This document shows positions 5,615-43,677 of a stretch of DNA of 64,000 bases, in pieces. The notes under the pieces are model-generated. The model ran no database searches. It saw only the letters and a list, made by a program, of their open reading frames with translations, and was not told the DNA's origin. Origin of the DNA: Roseococcus microcysteis (GTDB lineage Bacteria; Pseudomonadota; Alphaproteobacteria; Acetobacterales; Acetobacteraceae); contig NZ_CP061718.1 of NCBI RefSeq assembly GCF_014764365.1, forward strand, positions 2,682,501 to 2,746,500, given 5' to 3'. How positions within the stretch are numbered: the stretch's first letter is position 1; every line of letters begins with the position of its first letter. A program made the translations under genes and the position numbers.

Positions 5615-6762
5615 GCATGCGTATCGCCGCGCTGGACTTCCTGGGCGTGGCGGTGACGCCCAAGACCAATTGGTGCTTCCTGCTGCTGCGGACGGAGGGC
5701 GGGCTGACCGGCCTCGGCGAATGCACGCTCTCGGGCCAGGAGGCCCTGCTGGCGGCGGAGGCCGCGCGGCTGGGTGCCGAGGTCACGGGGCAGGACGCGC
5801 TGGCGCGCAACCGCCTGGCGCGGCTGCTGCCGCATGCGCCGGGCGGGCTGGTCGCGCACACGGTGCTGTCCGCCTTCGAGCAGGCGCAGTGGGATGTGGC
5901 GGCGCAGGCGGCGGGCGCGCCAATCCATGCGCTGCTGGGCGGCGCGCTGCGGCCGCGCATTCCGCTCTACGCCAACATCAACCGCGGCGTGTCGCCCCGC
6001 ACGCCCGAGGGCTTCGCCGCCGCCGCGCGGCGTGCGCTGGATGCGGGCTTCAGCGCGGTGAAGCTGGCGCCCTTCGACCCGATTGTCTGGGAAGATGCGG
6101 AGGGCTGGCGCGTGGGCTACGCGCAAGGCATCGCGCGCATCGCCGCCGTGCGCGAGGCCATCGGCCGCGATGTGGCGCTGATGGTGGACGCGCATTGGCG
6201 CTTCTCGCCCGGGGGCGCGGCGTCGCTGATCCGCGACGTGGCGCCGCTCGACCTGTTCTGGTTGGAATGCCTGGTGGCCGAGGCCAACCACGCCGAAATC
6301 CGCCGCCTGCGGAGCATGGCCAATGACCGCGGCATGCGGCTGGCCGGCGCCGAGACGCTGTCGGGCCTGGCCGCCTATCGGCCGCTGGTGGAGGGCGGCC
6401 TCTATGACGTGCTGATGCCCGACATGAAGCATTGCGGCGGGCATGAGGAGATGCGGCGCATCGCCGCCCTCGCGCTCACGGCGGGCGTCGAGATCGCGCC
6501 GCACAACCCGACCGGCCCTGTCTGCCACGCGCATTCCCTGCACGCCTGCGCGACGCTGCCGAACCTGCTGCCGCTGGAGGTGCAGTTCGGCGAGACGGAG
6601 CGCTTCTTCAGCCTGTGTGGCGGTGCCTCGCTGCGCTTCGACAGCGGTGCGGCGGCGGTGCCGCAGGCGCCCGGCCTCGGCGTGGCGCTGGACGAGGAAG
6701 GGGCACGCGCCACGCCCTGGGTGGCGCAGCGCATGCCCTGGCTGGATCCGCGCCTAGGTTAG
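5611..6762 (+). CDS. Mandelate racemase/muconate lactonizing enzyme family protein
   Basis: 383 residues, enolase superfamily. An N-terminal capping domain precedes a TIM barrel. Likely catalytic features are VKLAPFD on strand 2, the metal ligands D of LMVDAHW, E of FWLECLV and E of AGAETLSG, then MPDMKHCGG and the late barrel motif APHNPTG. It would abstract a proton alpha to a carboxylate (racemase, dehydratase or cycloisomerase). ATG at 5611 overlaps the previous stop (ATGA); a second ATG two codons on is possible. Third gene of the catabolic operon. Its stop overlaps a small convergent gene by 4 nt. Confidence 0.88.
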   Translation: MSMRIAALDFLGVAVTPKTNWCFLLLRTEGGLTGLGECTLSGQEALLAAEAARLGAEVTGQDALARNRLARLLPHAPGGLVAHTVLSAFEQAQWDVAAQAAGAPIHALLGGALRPRIPLYANINRGVSPRTPEGFAAAARRALDAGFSAVKLAPFDPIVWEDAEGWRVGYAQGIARIAAVREAIGRDVALMVDAHWRFSPGGAASLIRDVAPLDLFWLECLVAEANHAEIRRLRSMANDRGMRLAGAETLSGLAAYRPLVEGGLYDVLMPDMKHCGGHEEMRRIAALALTAGVEIAPHNPTGPVCHAHSLHACATLPNLLPLEVQFGETERFFSLCGGASLRFDSGAAAVPQAPGLGVALDEEGARATPWVAQRMPWLDPRLG

Positions 6763-6911
6763 TGCGCGGGCCGCCCGCGCTCGCCACAGGCGTAGTTGTG
6801 CGCGTGCACCAGCCCGTCGTCGAAATCCTCGGGGTGATGGACCATCGGGCGCTCGGCCTGGCCGCGCGGTTCCTGGCGTTGCGGGGTGTCGTTGCTTGTG
6901 TCCGGGTTCAT
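6759..6911 (-). CDS. Small hypothetical protein downstream of isocitrate lyase
   Basis: A 50-residue hydrophilic ORF: MNPDTSNDTPQRQEP..., then MVHHPEDFDDGLVHAHNYA and a single Cys near the end, stop TAA at 6759. A near-perfect AGGAGGACAG ribosome site sits just before ATG 6911, good support for translation. It starts 17 nt after the aceA stop on the same strand, so it is probably co-transcribed. It has no membrane helix or signal, and it is rich in His, Asp and Asn. I do not recognise a family. It overlaps the convergent enolase-superfamily gene by 4 nt. Confidence 0.7.
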   Translation of the reverse strand: MNPDTSNDTPQRQEPRGQAERPMVHHPEDFDDGLVHAHNYACGERGRPAH

Positions 6912-6928
6912 CGGTCTGTCCTCCTGGG

Positions 6929-8245
6929 TCAGGCGTGGTGGAATTGGGCCGCCTCGGTGCTGTCCTTCATGGCGGTGGTGCTGGCGGTGCCGCCGCTGGC
7001 GGCCTGGGCGACGGCGTCGAAGTAGCTGACACCCACCTCGCGCTGGTGGCGCACGGCGGTGAAGCCTTCCGCTTCCGCCGCGAATTCGGCCTGTTGCAAT
7101 TCGCTGTAGGCACCCATGCCGCGCTCGGCATAGCCGCGGGCCAGCTTGAACATGGACAGGTTCAGGCTGTGGAAGCCGGCCAGTGTCACGAACTGGAATT
7201 TGTAGCCCATGGCGCCGATCTCGCGCTGGAACTTCGCCGCCGCTTCCACACCCATCTTCCGCTGCCAGTTGAAGCTGGGCGAGCAGTTGTAGGCCAGCAT
7301 CTTGCCGGGGAAGTGCCTGTGGATGGCCTCGGCGAAGTCACGCGCGTCCTGCAGGTCGGGGTCGCTCGTCTCCCACCACAGCAGGTCGGCATAGGGGGCG
7401 TAGGCCAGGCTGCGGGCGATGGCGTAGTCCTTGCCCATGCCGGGCTTGATGCGGAAGAAGCCCTCGGGCGTGCGCTCGCCGCTGATGAAGGGGCGGTCGC
7501 GCTCGTCCACATCGCTGGTGAGCAATTGCGCGCTCTCCGCATCGGTGCGGCAGAGCAGCACGGTGCTGACACCCTCCACATCCGCCGCCAGCCGCGCCGC
7601 GTTCAGCGTGCGGATGTGCTGGCTGATCGGCACCAGCACCTTGCCGCCGAGATGGCCGCACTTTTTCTCGGACGCCAGCTGGTCCTCGAAATGCACGCCG
7701 GCGGCACCGGCCTCGATCATTGCGCGCATCAGCTCATAGGCGTTCAGCGCGCCGCCGAAGCCCGCTTCCGCATCGGCGATGATGGGGGCCATGTGGTGCG
7801 TGGCGTCATCGGCCTTGCCGTCCAGACGTTCCATGGTCGCGATCTGGTCGGCGCGGCGCAGGGCGTTGTTGATGCGGCGCACGACGCCCGGCACGCTGTC
7901 CACCGGATAGAGCGACTGGTCCGGGTACATCTGCCCCGCGCTGTTCGCATCCGCGGCCACCTGCCAGCCGGAGAGGTAGATGGCCTTCAGCCCCGCCTTC
8001 ACCTGCTGCAAGGCCTGCATGCCCGTCAGCGCGCCCAGCGTGTTCACGAAGGGCTCGGTGCGGAGCAGATGCCACAGCCGCCGCGCGCCCATCTCCGCCA
8101 GCGTGTGCTGCGTGCGGAAGCTGCCCGAGAGGCGCACCACATCGGCCGGCGTGTAGTCGCGGCGGATACCCTCGAACCGGCCAGGGTCGCGGTCACGGCC
8201 GCCGCCGCCATCGGGGGCGAGGTTCGGGGTGGGGGTGGGGCGCAT
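6929..8245 (-). CDS. aceA: Isocitrate lyase
   Basis: 438 residues. Cleaves isocitrate to glyoxylate and succinate, the entry step of the glyoxylate shunt for growth on acetate or fatty acids. The signature KKCGH is present (about 194-198, catalytic Cys196), as are [10 protein letters not shown] before it and YNCSPSFNW near residue 320. I chose ATG 8245 (MRPTPTPN) because GGAG lies upstream and N-terminal homology begins shortly after; more upstream starts lack a site. Divergent from a ScfR/RamB-type regulator across a 151-bp region with repeats. Malate synthase is not in the window. Confidence 0.97.
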
Positions 8246-8274
8246 GGGCGTGTCTCCGTGGGTGCTGTTCGCTG

Positions 8275-8385
8275 TGTGAATAATTGACATTGCGCCCGCC
8301 GAAATCACGCGCAGAATGGCGCTTCACGCGGCAAGACTGTGAAGGCCGCGACGTGATGCCCCGCAAATCCGTGAAGCTTGTGAAG
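8275..8385. promoter_or_regulatory. aceA/regulator divergent promoter with GTGAAG repeats
   Basis: The hexamer GTGAAG or its complement occurs four times: CTTCAC 8322-8327 facing GTGAAG 8339-8344 (inverted, 11-nt spacer), and direct copies at 8371-8376 and 8380-8385, nine bases apart. A 15-bp imperfect palindrome, TGTGAAT-A-ATTGACA, lies at 8275-8289 about 30 nt before the aceA start. The last repeat also contains the regulator ribosome site (AAGGA), which would suit autoregulation. The layout suggests operators for the adjacent ScfR-type protein. Confidence 0.5.
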
Positions 8386-8396
8386 GACCGCGTCCC

Positions 8397-9800
8397 ATGT
8401 CCCGCCCGCTGATCGGCCGCACGGCCCGCCGCCTCCGCCTGGAGATGGGCCTCACCCAGCAGGCGCTGGCCGCGCGGCTGGGCATCTCGGCCAGCTACCT
8501 GAACCTGATCGAGCACGACCAGCGCGCCGTCACCGCCACCGTCCTCATCAAGCTGACCGAGGCGCTGGGCGTGGACCTGGCGGCCCTGTCCGGTCACGCC
8601 GAACGGCAGCTGGAAGCCGGGCTGCGCGAGGTGCTGTCCGACCCCATGCTGGGCCTGGAGGTGATGCCCGAGAACGAGGTCCAGGCCATCGCCGCAAGCG
8701 CCCCCAATGCGGCGCGCGGCGTGCTGGCGCTGTATCGCGCCTGGCGCGTGGCGCGCGAGGATGCGTCGGGCATCGCCCTGCCCTCCGGCCGCCGCCTGCT
8801 GCTGCCGAACGAGGAGGTGCGCGACTTCTTCCACGAACGCGGCAACCACTTCGCCCGCATCGAGACCTTCACCGAATCCCTCGGCGCCGAGTTGCAGGCG
8901 AGCCCGGCCGAGATGAACCACGCCATCGCCCAGCGCCTGCGGCAGAAGCACAACGTCACCGTCACCGTCACGGCCATGCCCGAGGCCGACCGCCGCTACG
9001 ATCCGCGCACGCGCGAGCTCTGGCTGGCCGAATCCCTGCCCCGTGAATCGCGCGGCTTCCGCATGGCCTTCCAGCTGATGCTTCTGGAAGCGCGTGACGC
9101 CGTGGACGCCACCCTGGCCGACACCAAGCCCAGCACCAGCGAGGCCGAACAGCTCATCCGCATCGGCCTGCTGAACTACGCGGCGGCCGCCTTGCTCATG
9201 CCCTACGCGCCCTTCCTGCGCGCCGCGCGTGAGTTGCGGCACGATGTGGAACGCCTCGCCGCGCGCTTCGGCACCAGCTACGAACAGGTGGCGCAGCGCC
9301 TCTCCACCCTACAGCGCGAGGGCGCGCGCGGCCTGCCCTTCTTCTTCCTGCGCGCGGACACGGCGGGCAACGTCACGAAGCGCTTTTCCGCCGCCGGCTT
9401 CCCCTTCGCGCGCTTCGGCGGAAGCTGCCCGAAATGGATCGTCCACCACGCCTTCGCCACCCCTGGCGTCACGCGCGTGCAGGCGGCGGAGCTTCCGGAT
9501 GGCGCGGCCTTCCTCTGCATCGCGCGCGCCATGCACGGCACCTCGCCACGCTGGGGCGAGCCTCCGCCCACCCATGTCGTCGCCATCGGCTGCGACATCA
9601 CCAGGACAGAGGAGGTGGTCTATGCCGACGGCCTGGACCTGGTGACGGCGCGGGTGGGGATCGGGCTGTCCTGCCGGTTGTGCGACCGGGCCGATTGCCG
9701 CAGCCGCGCCTTTCCGCCATTGGAGCACCGCCTGCGCCTCGACGCGAATGAGGACAGCGCATCCCCCTGGCGCTTCGACCGCAAGGACGCCCCGCGTTGA
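8397..9800 (+). CDS. ScfR/RamB-type transcriptional regulator (XRE HTH plus ImmA/IrrE-like domains)
   Basis: 467 residues. The N-terminal XRE helix-turn-helix (LRLEMGLTQQALAARLGIS, about 11-30) is followed by SYLNLIEHDQRAVT. A long middle segment resembles the IrrE-like domain, and the C-terminal DUF2083-type region has a cysteine cluster (SCRLCDRADC). Known members (RamB, ScfR, PrpR) control acetate, short-chain acyl and glyoxylate/methylcitrate genes. The divergent position next to aceA fits control of the glyoxylate shunt. ATG 8397 has AAGGA 9 nt upstream. The ligand is probably an acyl-CoA (family inference). Overlaps the next gene by TTGA. Confidence 0.9.
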   Translation: MSRPLIGRTARRLRLEMGLTQQALAARLGISASYLNLIEHDQRAVTATVLIKLTEALGVDLAALSGHAERQLEAGLREVLSDPMLGLEVMPENEVQAIAASAPNAARGVLALYRAWRVAREDASGIALPSGRRLLLPNEEVRDFFHERGNHFARIETFTESLGAELQASPAEMNHAIAQRLRQKHNVTVTVTAMPEADRRYDPRTRELWLAESLPRESRGFRMAFQLMLLEARDAVDATLADTKPSTSEAEQLIRIGLLNYAAAALLMPYAPFLRAARELRHDVERLAARFGTSYEQVAQRLSTLQREGARGLPFFFLRADTAGNVTKRFSAAGFPFARFGGSCPKWIVHHAFATPGVTRVQAAELPDGAAFLCIARAMHGTSPRWGEPPPTHVVAIGCDITRTEEVVYADGLDLVTARVGIGLSCRLCDRADCRSRAFPPLEHRLRLDANEDSASPWRFDRKDAPR

Positions 9801-40110: not shown

Positions 40111-40700
40111 GGCTGGTTCTCGCCTCGCAAAGCGCCTCGCGCCGGGCCTTGCTGACGGCCGCCGGGCTGGAGTTCGAGGCCCTGCCGGCCGCGGTGGATG
40201 AAGCCACCATCAAGGAATCCGCCCGCGCCGAGGGCATGGCGGTGGCCGAGGCCGCCACATTGCTGGCCGATGCCAAGGCCGCGCGCATCGCGCGCAAGCA
40301 CCCCGATGCCGTCATCATCGGCGCCGACCAGATCCTGGTCTGCGAGGGGGAATGGTTCGACAAGCCCGAGGATGTGGAAGCCGCCCACGCGCACCTCACG
40401 CGCCTGCGGAACAAGCCGCATGAGCTGGTGACGGCCGTGGTGGTCTGGCGCGAGGGCGAGCGCGCCTGGCACCATGTGGCCCGCCCGAAGCTCGTGATGC
40501 GCGACTTCTCCGACGCCTTCCTCGACGCCTACCTGGCGCGCGAGGCGGAATTCGTCACGCAGAGCGTGGGGGCCTATCGGCTGGAGGGGCTGGGCCTCCA
40601 GCTCATGCGCGACATCAAGGGCGAGCACACGGCCATCCTCGGCCTGCCCATGCTGCCCCTGCTGGCCTATCTGCGGGACAGCGGCGTCATCCCCGCCTGA
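40107..40700 (+). CDS. maf: Maf family nucleotide pyrophosphatase
   Basis: 197 residues. Hydrolyses non-canonical or modified nucleoside triphosphates to the monophosphates; the dTTP/UTP and m7GTP subclasses cannot be told apart with certainty. Starts [18 protein letters not shown] (residues 3-20), with [20 protein letters not shown] (catalytic Asp) and the late [18 protein letters not shown] 40107 overlaps the COG1806 stop. COG1806-maf, followed elsewhere by aroE and coaE, is a common alphaproteobacterial origin cluster; here the convergent binding-protein gene interrupts it, overlapping by 14 nt. Confidence 0.94.
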
Positions 40701-42273
40701 GGTTCCACAGCATCGGGCTTGGCGCCTGCAGCACGCCCGTCAATTCTCGGCGGAAGGCGGTGCGCAGGCGGAACAGGCCGGTGGGGGCGAAGGGGACCGA
40801 CTCCCAGGCCGCTTCCTGCAGCTTCGCCATCGCCACCTCCTGCCCCGCGCGGTCGGGCGCGGCGAGCCAGGCCTGGACCTGTTCCTCGATCGCCGCATCC
40901 TCCGGCCAGCCGAACCAGGCCGCCGCGCCATGCGCGCGGATGATGGGGCTGAGGCCCGGGTTCGCGATGCCGGGCGAGGGGAAGTTGGTGTTGTGCAGGC
41001 TCCAGCCGCCCTGGGTGGGTGGGGCACGGTTGGCACGGCGCGCGACGATGGTGGCCCAGTCGCTTTCCACCGCCTCGATGGTGACGCCGAGGCGGCGCAT
41101 GAGGTCCACGGTGAGCCTTCCCTGCTGGGTGACGGCGGGGAAGTCGCTCGGGTTGATGTGGACCAGGGTTTCACCGCGATAGCCCGCTTGGCGCAGCGCC
41201 TCGCGCGCGCGGTCCATGGCGGCGGCGTTGCGGGGCGCGGGCGGGAATTCGCGGATGCCGGGCAGGCTGCACGGGAACATGGCGTGGCATTCCTGCCAGT
41301 CGCCGGGGATGGCGACGGCCGACATGAAGTCGCTCTGCACGATCAGGTCGCGGATGGCGCGGCGCACGCGCACATCGTCGAAGGGCTTGTGCAGGTGGTT
41401 GAAGCGCAGGAAGCCCAGGAAGCCCAGCGGGTCATAGATCTGCGTGCGGGTGTTGCGGTCGCGGTCCAGCACGGGAACGAGGTCGGGCAGGGGGTATTCG
41501 ATCCAGTCCACCTCGCCGGTGCGGAGTGCCGCGGCGGCGGTGCCGCCATCGGGGATCCAGACCATCTCCAGCCGGTCGAAATGCACCCGCTTGCCGCCGG
41601 AGGAGAGTTCCGCCGGCTCGTCGCGCGGGATGTAGCGCTCATTCTTCGCATAGGCCGCGAAGGCGCCGGCGTTGAACTCGCCCGGCAGGAAGCGCCAGGG
41701 GCCGGAGCCGATGATTTCCGTCACGGCGCGATCCGCGGGCGTGGCGGCGATGCGCGCGGGCATGATGAAGCACGGGATGGTCATGATCTTCGCCAGCCCG
41801 TCCAGCAGGCTGGGGAAGGGGCGGTGCAGGCGGAAGGTGATGCGCCTGTCGTCGGGGGCTGACAGTTCGGCGGTGGCCTGCATCAGCACCTGGCCGAAGC
41901 CGTCGCGCACCGCCCAGCGGCGGATGGACGCCACGCAGTCCCGCGCCAGCACCGGTTCGCCGTCATGGAAGACCAGGCCCTCGCGCAGGGTGATGGTCCA
42001 GGTGAGGCCATCGGGCGCGACCTCATGCCCCGCCGCCATCTGCGGCCGCGGGCGCAACTGCGCGTCCACGCCATAGAGCGTGTCGAAGACGCAATTGCCG
42101 TGGGTGGAGGTGATGGTGGTCAGGTTGAAGACCGGATCGAGCGAGGCGAGCGCCGCCTGCGGCATGAAGCGCAGGGTGCGGGCGCGGGCGTTCTGCGCGG
42201 CGGCGGGGGCGGCGAGGGAGGCCGCCGCGGCGGCGCCCAGGAAGTGACGCCGATTCAAGTGAGTGGGGTTCAC
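40687..42273 (-). CDS. Family-5 (DppA/OppA-like) ABC substrate-binding protein under TPP riboswitch
   Basis: 528 residues. Tat-like signal LNRRHFLGAAAAASLAAPAA (about 6-25), then LRFMPQAALASLDPVFN and the SBP_bac_5 landmarks LREGLVFHDGEPVLARD and PLGFLGFLRFNHLHKPFDD. The start is GTG 42273, with GGAGG 7 nt upstream. Family 5 proteins bind peptides, nickel and other solutes. Here a TPP riboswitch lies just upstream, so thiamine, a thiamine phosphate or a precursor is a plausible ligand (inference). No permease or ATPase genes accompany it, so it must borrow partners encoded elsewhere. Confidence 0.92.
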   Translation of the reverse strand: MNPTHLNRRHFLGAAAAASLAAPAAAQNARARTLRFMPQAALASLDPVFNLTTITSTHGNCVFDTLYGVDAQLRPRPQMAAGHEVAPDGLTWTITLREGLVFHDGEPVLARDCVASIRRWAVRDGFGQVLMQATAELSAPDDRRITFRLHRPFPSLLDGLAKIMTIPCFIMPARIAATPADRAVTEIIGSGPWRFLPGEFNAGAFAAYAKNERYIPRDEPAELSSGGKRVHFDRLEMVWIPDGGTAAAALRTGEVDWIEYPLPDLVPVLDRDRNTRTQIYDPLGFLGFLRFNHLHKPFDDVRVRRAIRDLIVQSDFMSAVAIPGDWQECHAMFPCSLPGIREFPPAPRNAAAMDRAREALRQAGYRGETLVHINPSDFPAVTQQGRLTVDLMRRLGVTIEAVESDWATIVARRANRAPPTQGGWSLHNTNFPSPGIANPGLSPIIRAHGAAAWFGWPEDAAIEEQVQAWLAAPDRAGQEVAMAKLQEAAWESVPFAPTGLFRLRTAFRRELTGVLQAPSPMLWNLRRG

Positions 42274-42316
42274 ACATTTCCTCCATACGGCGCGGCGCAC
42301 GGGAGGAAACGGGGTC

Positions 42317-42335
42317 GCGCGGCGGGATGCCGCGC
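42317..42335 (-). promoter_or_regulatory. Hairpin downstream of TPP aptamer (probable expression platform)
   Basis: A perfect 7-bp stem, GCGCGGC/GCCGCGC, with a 5-nt ATCCC loop lies between the riboswitch and the ribosome site. No U-tract follows on the minus strand (only GTTT further on), so it is a weak intrinsic terminator candidate or part of a translation-control fold. Confidence 0.5.
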
Positions 42336-42337
42336 CT

Positions 42338-42437
42338 CGTCCACCGCTCCCTTCGCCGGTCCGAACCGGATCAGGTTCCAAGGCTCGCGGGATGCGTCCC
42401 GCCTCTCAGCCCTGCATCAGGGCTCACCCAGGTGACG
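42338..42437 (-). promoter_or_regulatory. TPP riboswitch (THI element)
   Basis: Read on the minus strand the aptamer carries the conserved CTGAGA (42404-42409) after a GCCC-loop-GGGC stem, then GAACCTGATC (42369-42378), then CCGGCG (42354-42359) followed by AAGGGAG. These are the invariant J2/3, J4/5 and P5 core elements of thiamine-pyrophosphate sensors. P1 can form from CGTCACC and GGTGGACG at the two ends. It precedes the family-5 binding-protein gene by 65 nt. High TPP should lower expression. Confidence 0.95.
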
Positions 42438-42485
42438 GGGTGAGGTTTGCGCCCGTTGGCGGCGCGCGACAAGAGGCTTGCAGAA

Positions 42486-42534: not shown

Positions 42535-43677
42535 ATGTCCTCCACCCGCCGCCATTTCCTCGCCGCCTCCGGCGCCACCCTGCTGACCCTCCAGGCCGGG
42601 ATGGTTCGCAGCCAGCCCTTGGTCGGGCCGCTCGCCCCCCCTCCTTTGGCACCTTGGGCGGTGTCAGGCGCCAGCGCGCCCGACCCGCGCCTCGGCGCCA
42701 TGGCCTGGGCCGTGCTGGCCCCCAACCCGCACAACCGCCAGCCCTGGGCGCTGCGCCTGGTGGGCGAGAGCGAGGCCCTGCTCTTCTGCGACCTCGACCG
42801 CCGCCTGCCCGCGACCGACCCCTTCGACCGGCAGATCGTGATCGGCCTGGGCTGCTTTCTCGAATTGTTCCGCATGGCGGCCGCGGAGCGGGGGATGGAC
42901 GCTGCGCTGACGCCCTTCCCGGAAGGTGAGCCCGCCCCGCGCCTCGATGCGCGGCCCGTGGCCCGCATCACCCTGCGCCCGGGCGGCACGCGGGACCCGC
43001 TCTTCGCCGCCGTGCCGCAACGGCGCAGCGCGAAGCAGCCCTATGACGTGACGCGGCCGCTGCCCGAGGGCGCGCCGGCGCAACTCGCCGCCGCCCTGCT
43101 GGAACCCGCGCGGCTGAGCGTTGCCAGCGGCGATGTGGCCGCCATCCGCGACCTGACCTGGCGCGCCTGGCTGGTCGAAGCGAACCACCAGGCCGCCTGG
43201 GGCGAGAGCGTGGAACTCTCCCGCCTTGGCACCGAGGCGGTGACGGCGCAGCCGGACGGCATCTCGCTCTGGGGCCCGCAGATGGACGCCATGCTGGCGC
43301 GGGGCGAACTCAGCCACGCGGCCATGGCCATCGGCCAGCCGGGCCACGCCTTCGCCCTGCGGCAATACGAGGTGATGCTGGGCGCGACCAACGCCTATGC
43401 CTGGCTCACCACGCCCGGCAACAGCCGCGCGGAGCAGATCGCCACCGGGCGGGACTGGCTGCGGCTGAATTTGGCGGCGACGGCGGCGGGGCTGGCCATG
43501 CAGCCGGTCAGCCAGGCCTTGCAGGAGTTTCCCGAGATGGCCGGGCCTTCCGCGGAGATGCCGAGGGTTCTGGGCGCCACGGGCACGGTGCAGATGCTGG
43601 GGCGCCTCGGCTTCGCCACCCGCGCCGCACCCCCCACCCCCCGCTGGCCCGCGGAATCGCGTATCATCCCCGGGTGA
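42535..43677 (+). CDS. Acg-like nitroreductase-family protein, Tat-exported
   Basis: 380 residues. The N-terminus STRRHFLAASGATLL is a twin-arginine signal. The body matches the Acg/TM_1586-like nitroreductase group: NPHNRQPWALRLVGE near the start (flavin-binding NRQPW), PQRRSAKQPYD, and a C-terminal GLAMQPVSQALQEFPEM. It should bind FMN and may reduce or sequester a small molecule in the periplasm. ATG 42535 has AAAGGAG 8 nt upstream. It lies just after a palindromic operator and overlaps a marR gene (GTGA), so autoregulation is likely. Confidence 0.85.
   Translation: MSSTRRHFLAASGATLLTLQAGMVRSQPLVGPLAPPPLAPWAVSGASAPDPRLGAMAWAVLAPNPHNRQPWALRLVGESEALLFCDLDRRLPATDPFDRQIVIGLGCFLELFRMAAAERGMDAALTPFPEGEPAPRLDARPVARITLRPGGTRDPLFAAVPQRRSAKQPYDVTRPLPEGAPAQLAAALLEPARLSVASGDVAAIRDLTWRAWLVEANHQAAWGESVELSRLGTEAVTAQPDGISLWGPQMDAMLARGELSHAAMAIGQPGHAFALRQYEVMLGATNAYAWLTTPGNSRAEQIATGRDWLRLNLAATAAGLAMQPVSQALQEFPEMAGPSAEMPRVLGATGTVQMLGRLGFATRAAPPTPRWPAESRIIPG

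Follow-up and report, generated by a model that had tools for sequence, protein, structure and literature searches.

A TPP riboswitch precedes a lone family-5 solute-binding protein gene in Roseococcus and its relatives: a candidate receptor for a B1 vitamer

A TPP riboswitch lies directly upstream of a gene for a solitary family-5 solute-binding protein (SBP_bac_5) in Roseococcus microcysteis, and the same arrangement recurs among its closest relatives. The DNA analysed, referred to here as the window, is a stretch of 64,000 nt (assembly GCF_014764365.1, contig NZ_CP061718.1, positions 2,682,501 to 2,746,500, forward strand). A previous reading of the sequence alone had noticed the riboswitch in front of this gene, and the observation is confirmed here. 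That the encoded protein is a receptor for some vitamer of B1 appears very likely to us. The fuller reading that we favour, with confidence only somewhat on the positive side, is that of a receptor under TPP control whose ligand would be HMP (the pyrimidine half of B1) or a closely related vitamer, and which would operate on a shared DppBCDF permease.

The aptamer maps to positions 42330..42439 of the window, on the minus strand. The cmscan match to the Rfam model (RF00059) is full length (model positions 1-105), with an E value of 3.2e-9 for the entire window and a score of 59.8 bits that passes the gathering cut-off of 54.3; the covariance search that the sequence-only reading had named as a check thus returned an above-cut-off match. 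With a threshold of E 0.001, a scan of the whole R. microcysteis genome found no TPP riboswitch other than this one. The receptor gene, at 40687..42273 on the same strand, starts 56 bases beyond the aptamer with a GTG codon, preceded six bases upstream by a GGAGG motif, and encodes a protein of 528 amino acids (P0001). The span originally assigned to the two elements together, 40687..42437, was right at the gene end and two bases short at the aptamer end (42439); the strand, then unstated, is minus. P0001 matches Pfam family PF00496 (SBP_bac_5) with 179.6 bits against a cut-off of 32.4, and has no other Pfam match. Its N-terminus (LNRRHFLGAAAA...) is twin-arginine-like when inspected by eye, in keeping with the Tat-like signal described earlier. 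The gene is without an operon partner and, as its description as an orphan implied, no permease or ATPase gene adjoins it. A maf-like gene (our naming) lies downstream in convergent orientation, and a nitroreductase-like gene (42661-43677, plus strand; our reading, with no Pfam match) is divergent and upstream of the riboswitch. The nature of the divergent gene varies among relatives; in loci L006, L017 and L036 it is galactarate/altronate dehydratase-like.

The leader separating the aptamer from the start codon (42274..42329, minus strand, 56 bases) contains the sequence UUUCCUCC, which is complementary over 8 bases to the ribosome-binding stretch GGAGGAAA. The 8-bp stem that these segments can form has a shuffle p of 0.017. 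Searching the leader for terminator-like sites yielded none, and a 200-base leader fold was not stronger than those of shuffled sequences (z -1.28). Since eight leader bases mirror the ribosome-binding stretch, control at the start of translation through this stem would fit and is possible; the pairing is not general, though. A ribosome-binding-site stem reached a shuffle p of 0.05 in only 6 of the 31 leaders scored out of 39, a sample that includes several doubtful start codons and one start (L004) set by hand; this gives little sign of a conserved stem.

Pairing within the aptamer was assessed in a MAFFT alignment of 25 aptamers, using the 27 pairs of the Rfam structure; six slid versions of this structure and shuffled alignments served as controls. 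With the Rfam structure 92.3% of cells pair, as against 34-59% in the slid controls, and 21 cells are changed on both sides, as against 7.8 +/- 1.8 in shuffles and 1-5 in slid controls. Because both measures exceed their controls, the match goes beyond chance. Compensatory changes were found in helices 2 and 3; no variation was seen in helix 4 or in the greater part of helix 5, and the core is nearly invariant among relatives. Two of the 27 pairs are broken in the majority of rows (19 of 25 for columns 13/102, 15 of 25 for columns 76/95), and the rows for loci L008 and L011 are misaligned at their 5' end. These two loci (genomes G005 and G006) hold the aptamers that score below the gathering cut-off with the Rfam model, at 48.8 and 39.5 bits. 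Both (about 7739-7903 in L008 and about 7740-7900 in L011) are TPP aptamers with an insert of ~50 bases that lengthens the P3 arm. The insert brings them below the cut-off, although P1 and P2 seem, by eye, to keep their 5' strands farther upstream. Repeated CTGAGA matches in some loci were considered as separate elements and dismissed, the repeats deriving from one and the same aptamer.

Of 154 related stretches in named genomes, the best 80 were surveyed for the link between riboswitch and receptor. Loci L002-L038 are 37 orthologues with 61-96% best-segment identity, and another 42 are homologues at 39-47%; L063, a fragment without upstream DNA, was left out of all counts. A covariance model (R1), built from 25 of these aptamers and hence scoring them partly by construction, placed a riboswitch directly upstream and on the same strand in the window and in 37/37 orthologues with upstream DNA. 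The original observation would have been refuted if homologues of the binding protein were never preceded by the element; close homologues are preceded by it. With the same model, a same-strand riboswitch was found before none of the 42 more distant homologues (two of which, L041 and L058, have only about 156 upstream bases), and the notion that the link is a general trait of family-5 receptors was rejected on this ground. Run on whole genomes, Rfam's own model detected the aptamer before the receptor in all 14 pair-bearing genomes, above the cut-off in 12. One further orthologue, in G024 (61% identity), was reached through its riboswitch (69.3 bits) and stands outside the 37/37 count. Paralogues at 49-50% identity in G004, G007, G009, G011 and G024 are not themselves preceded by a TPP riboswitch. 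In a tree of 170 rows, 35 riboswitch-linked receptors formed a single clade with a support of 100, and riboswitch linkage required one change as opposed to a shuffled mean of 32.3; the point at which the clade attaches is weakly supported. The tree took 35 of the 39 riboswitch-linked proteins, L012, L016, L030 and L037 having been cut or missed by a simple gene caller. A different configuration was seen in L053 (Bosea, about 6640-9584) and L054 (a Rhizobiales isolate, 6744-8593), where a distant receptor homologue is arranged divergently to a TPP riboswitch on the other strand; the riboswitch of L053 precedes a thiBPQ-like operon (named by us from its ORFs).

The receptor has a DppA/NikA-type fold in its AlphaFold model (pLDDT 89.6, pTM 0.86), whose top Foldseek matches are family-5 receptors. 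Among solved structures, the nearest is 8vdx of Bordetella bronchiseptica (phmmer E 1.8e-111; Foldseek 38% identity, E 5.8e-62), likewise a family-5 protein, named only "extracellular solute-binding protein" in listings. The nearest characterised folds are those of peptide, glutathione, nickel, sialic-acid and opine receptors. In an alignment with Escherichia coli DppA, uncertain at ~18% identity, the GDNGDPDN stretch of DppA falls opposite a gap in all 5 family rows inspected (of 32 aligned). This stretch holds Asp436 (E. coli precursor numbering), the acidic residue gripping the amino end of the peptide. At 56 positions, the riboswitch-linked clade has a residue fixed in at least 94% of its members that occurs in under 15% of the other 135 rows, and the residues at these positions are candidates for the ligand pocket. 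P0001 residues 61, 308, 309, 330, 372, 403, 427, 428 and 430 are among them.

The thiamine pathway was inventoried in 27 genomes picked by similarity to the receptor, which makes them kin and not independent samples. No match to thiC was obtained in the R. microcysteis genome with a model that was positive in 13/14 control genomes. The same genome has thiE (164.5 bits), thiL (288.7), thiD (312.9), thiG (347.5) and, both over cut-off, thiS (77.8), which adjoins thiG, and TenA (133.2). Matches to PF03070, present in 26/27 genomes, mix TenA and PqqC, and the two were told apart in R. microcysteis only. Since thiC is absent and thiS, G, D, E, L and tenA are present, R. microcysteis should need HMP; Table 1 of PMC6593275 lists this pattern as the "HMP auxotroph" type. 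All 14 pair-bearing genomes have thiE, thiL, thiD and thiG over cut-off. Nine of them are without thiC and contain exactly one TPP riboswitch each. The five that have it (G005, G006, G009, G012 and G024) contain one or two extra TPP riboswitches: one precedes thiC and, in G005 and G006, a second precedes thiG. Judging from these gene complements, most of the riboswitch-receptor relatives of Roseococcus seem unable to make one half of B1.

The absence of thiC extends to 13 of the 27 genomes: nine with the riboswitch-receptor pair, four with a riboswitch-ThiZXY operon and none with both. In the latter four (G019, G020, G023 and G025), the riboswitch is followed by genes for an ABC ATPase, a permease and a relative of ThiY, the G019 protein belonging to Pfam NMT1/THI5. 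In the thiC-less Pseudoroseomonas relatives, such a riboswitch followed by genes in ThiZXY order can be seen at 1637-4229 of L112 (G019) and at 1921-4469 of L115 (G023). A search with one ThiY sequence found relatives at 77% or more only in G016, G019, G020, G023 and G025 among the 27 genomes, and in 0/14 riboswitch-receptor genomes; most genomes gave partial ThiY-superfamily matches of 22 to 36%, those in pair-bearing genomes being at 36% or less. Two unrelated receptors thus alternate behind one riboswitch class. The strength of the association is not readable from the Fisher values (0.0005, 0.0014 and 0.016), which ignore the kinship of the 27 genomes. A second route for B1 vitamers, such as CytX, PnuT, ThiV, YkoE or ThiBPQ, may exist in the R. 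microcysteis genome besides the receptor.

These data bear on what the receptor binds and on whether the aptamer controls it at all. The aptamer might be a relic or a chance match with no control of the receptor gene; the window score is only 5.5 bits over the gathering cut-off, and two orthologues fall below it. We regard this as scarcely credible given the presence of the aptamer before every orthologue with upstream DNA, the compensatory changes in helices 2 and 3 together with the near-invariant core, and the longer P3 arm and retained P1 and P2 5' strands of the two low scorers. Peptides or another non-B1 nutrient might be the ligand, the tie to TPP being indirect, for instance through sulfur or amino-acid supply. 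This would agree with the Pfam family and with the nearest characterised folds; yet in the nine thiC-less genomes the receptor would then be the only TPP-riboswitch gene, with no close ThiY relative at hand, and the peptide-gripping stretch of DppA has a gap opposite it, as far as the alignment can be relied upon. We consider a non-B1 ligand improbable. If the receptor binds a B1 vitamer, an HMP-like ligand is the more probable one, because the HMP branch alone is missing from the pathway and because ThiXYZ, the type of system that alternates with the receptor, is assigned to HMP in PMC12236431. Thiamine itself (or TMP/TPP) is the competing candidate; it would supply TPP through a thiamine kinase, or else as HMP once TenA has cleaved it. 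Thiamine could rescue any strain without thiC, the TenA that is present could turn thiamine or its debris into HMP, and in Bosea a TPP riboswitch also precedes the thiBPQ-like operon. Moreover, alternation with ThiZXY is no proof of HMP, since Table 1 of PMC6593275 places ThiXYZ under HMP and a ThiXYZ2 variant under B1 itself. Against thiamine stand the two arguments for HMP and, nominally, the failure of the thiamine pyrophosphokinase model TIGR01378 to match in any of the 27 genomes, as opposed to 7/14 control genomes. We do not count this last result as evidence: Bosea G021, with its riboswitch and thiBPQ-like operon, scores none either, so the model may miss the type of kinase used. On balance, a thiamine ligand seems unlikely, although far from negligible.

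The receptor would also need a permease. When 39 loci (3.0-17.6 kb; the window, 64 kb) were searched by tblastn with the R. microcysteis DppBCDF proteins at E 1e-15, no matching permease was found beside the receptor, and the idea of a riboswitch-linked operon with a permease of its own was abandoned. The sole permease match among these loci was a DppB/DppC pair at 34-36%, nearby on the opposite strand in L004; a 30% ATPase stretch occurs elsewhere in the window. A cruder motif scan picked out one distant gene each in L004, L017 and L038, that of L017 encoding two ATPase domains without a permease match. The R. microcysteis genome has 12 members of the receptor family at E 1e-20. Of the eight paralogues looked at (among 11), two are in a DppBCDF cluster and six outside. 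This cluster (about 104.8-112.1 kb on contig C1 of the genome; 5810-13117 of locus L116) consists, by Pfam, of two tandem related receptors before DppB, DppC, DppD and DppF. The same order, tandem related receptors and then DppB-C-D-F, was present in 11/11 genomes examined (of the 14 pair-bearing), with DppB 83-100% and the DppBCDF proteins overall 76-100% identical to the R. microcysteis set. In the arrays (L116, L123, L124 and L130-L137), one DppBCDF follows a tandem run of two to five family-5 receptors, and the genomes with such arrays also contain lone receptors elsewhere, giving a family with many receptors and one permease.

We propose docking of the riboswitch-linked receptor on the array DppBCDF because related receptors precede this permease in all 11 genomes and because sharing has a precedent in the DppA1-A5 proteins discussed below. 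The sequence-only reading had suggested uptake of thiamine, its phosphates or breakdown products by way of a shared permease; the genome context supports this interpretation, points to the pyrimidine half as the likelier ligand and offers the array DppBCDF as a candidate for that permease. That the array permease is the partner strikes us as an evenly balanced proposition. The B1 ligand may be right and the permease another, unlinked one of family-5 type. In line with this, nothing matching adjoins the receptor in the 39 loci save the distant opposite-strand pair of L004, at least one further DppB/DppC pair (L120, 32-36%) exists in the R. microcysteis genome, and some lone paralogues, at 49-50%, are closer kin of P0001 than the array receptors are (39-47%). 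Nevertheless, the array DppBCDF is served by receptors of the P0001 subfamily in every genome examined, and we rate a different permease as a less likely, if plausible, alternative.

The favoured reading, an HMP-like vitamer carried through the shared DppBCDF, would work as follows. Under TPP shortage, the riboswitch would leave the receptor mRNA accessible; with ample TPP, it would shut the gene, probably at the translation start, a direction of regulation that we infer. The receptor would be exported to the periplasm and bind a B1 vitamer there, with HMP or a close derivative of it (aminomethyl- or formylamino-pyrimidine) as the most likely ligand, and would pass it to a DppBCDF-type permease common to related receptors. 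The roles of ThiD, TenA, ThiE, ThiS/ThiG and ThiL are established for these enzyme families. Inside the cell, ThiD would phosphorylate HMP, which TenA could regenerate from the amino form; ThiE would couple HMP with the thiazole from ThiS/ThiG, and the last step to TPP would fall to ThiL. The receptor would stand in for the ThiXYZ-type importer that sister lineages keep under the same riboswitch class. As a broader scenario, put forward tentatively and with slightly more doubt than belief, the receptor would belong to a new HMP/B1 importer class, one with vitamin control of the receptor alone. It would have been recruited from an expanded DppBCDF-feeding family and have gained the TPP riboswitch a single time, before Roseococcus, Rubritepida, Neoroseomonas, Crenalkalicoccus, Pararoseomonas and Roseomonas diverged; it would have replaced ThiXYZ for HMP uptake, permitting repeated loss of thiC.

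Annotations usually assign family-5 receptors to peptides or nickel. For a large orphan subfamily of them, the riboswitch offers what is seldom available, a ligand prediction that can be tested. If correct, this prediction would give B1 reconstructions one more type of transporter, where such strains would otherwise be called HMP auxotrophs without a recognised importer, and would describe a vitamin regulon run by swapping one regulated receptor onto a shared permease. No report of a family-5 receptor under a TPP riboswitch was found among the matches listed in a search of the open-access PMC literature, mostly titles and the starts of abstracts. The sequence-only reading had considered a lone receptor of this family an unusual member of the TPP regulon, and Table 1 of PMC6593275 indeed shows no such type among its transporters for B1, HMP and HET. 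PMC3766115 puts the number of transporter orthologues in TPP regulons at 19, and the family-5 type may figure among these in its supplementary list. In Ketogulonicigenium, ThiB and family-5 receptors rise under glutathione (PMC3284542); the passages on this give no riboswitch link for the latter.

Among the closest known systems, TPP riboswitch-ThiXYZ has the same riboswitch class, an ABC-type receptor and the same presumed need in thiC-less strains, and is present in place of our receptor in G019, G020, G023 and G025. It differs in that ThiY is a PF09084 protein (334 aa in G019), whereas the receptor is a PF00496 protein of 528 aa without an NMT1/THI5 domain, and in that permease and ATPase are part of the operon, neither of which adjoins the receptor. 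TPP riboswitch-ThiBPQ resembles the present pair as a riboswitch-controlled ABC receptor for a B1 vitamer (predicted in our case), but has another receptor and a complete operon, none of which was seen beside the present gene. The HMP auxotroph SAR11, as described in PMC11452348, has an HMP importer gene, thiV, with a TPP riboswitch upstream; its product is a sodium symporter, not an ABC receptor. Finally, in Pseudomonas aeruginosa several family-5 receptors, DppA1-A5, share one DppBCDF (PMC4206461), which makes permease sharing mechanically possible. Their ligands are peptides, and the abstract mentions neither a riboswitch nor a vitamin; the likeness to the arrangement proposed here lies in the many receptors served by a single permease.
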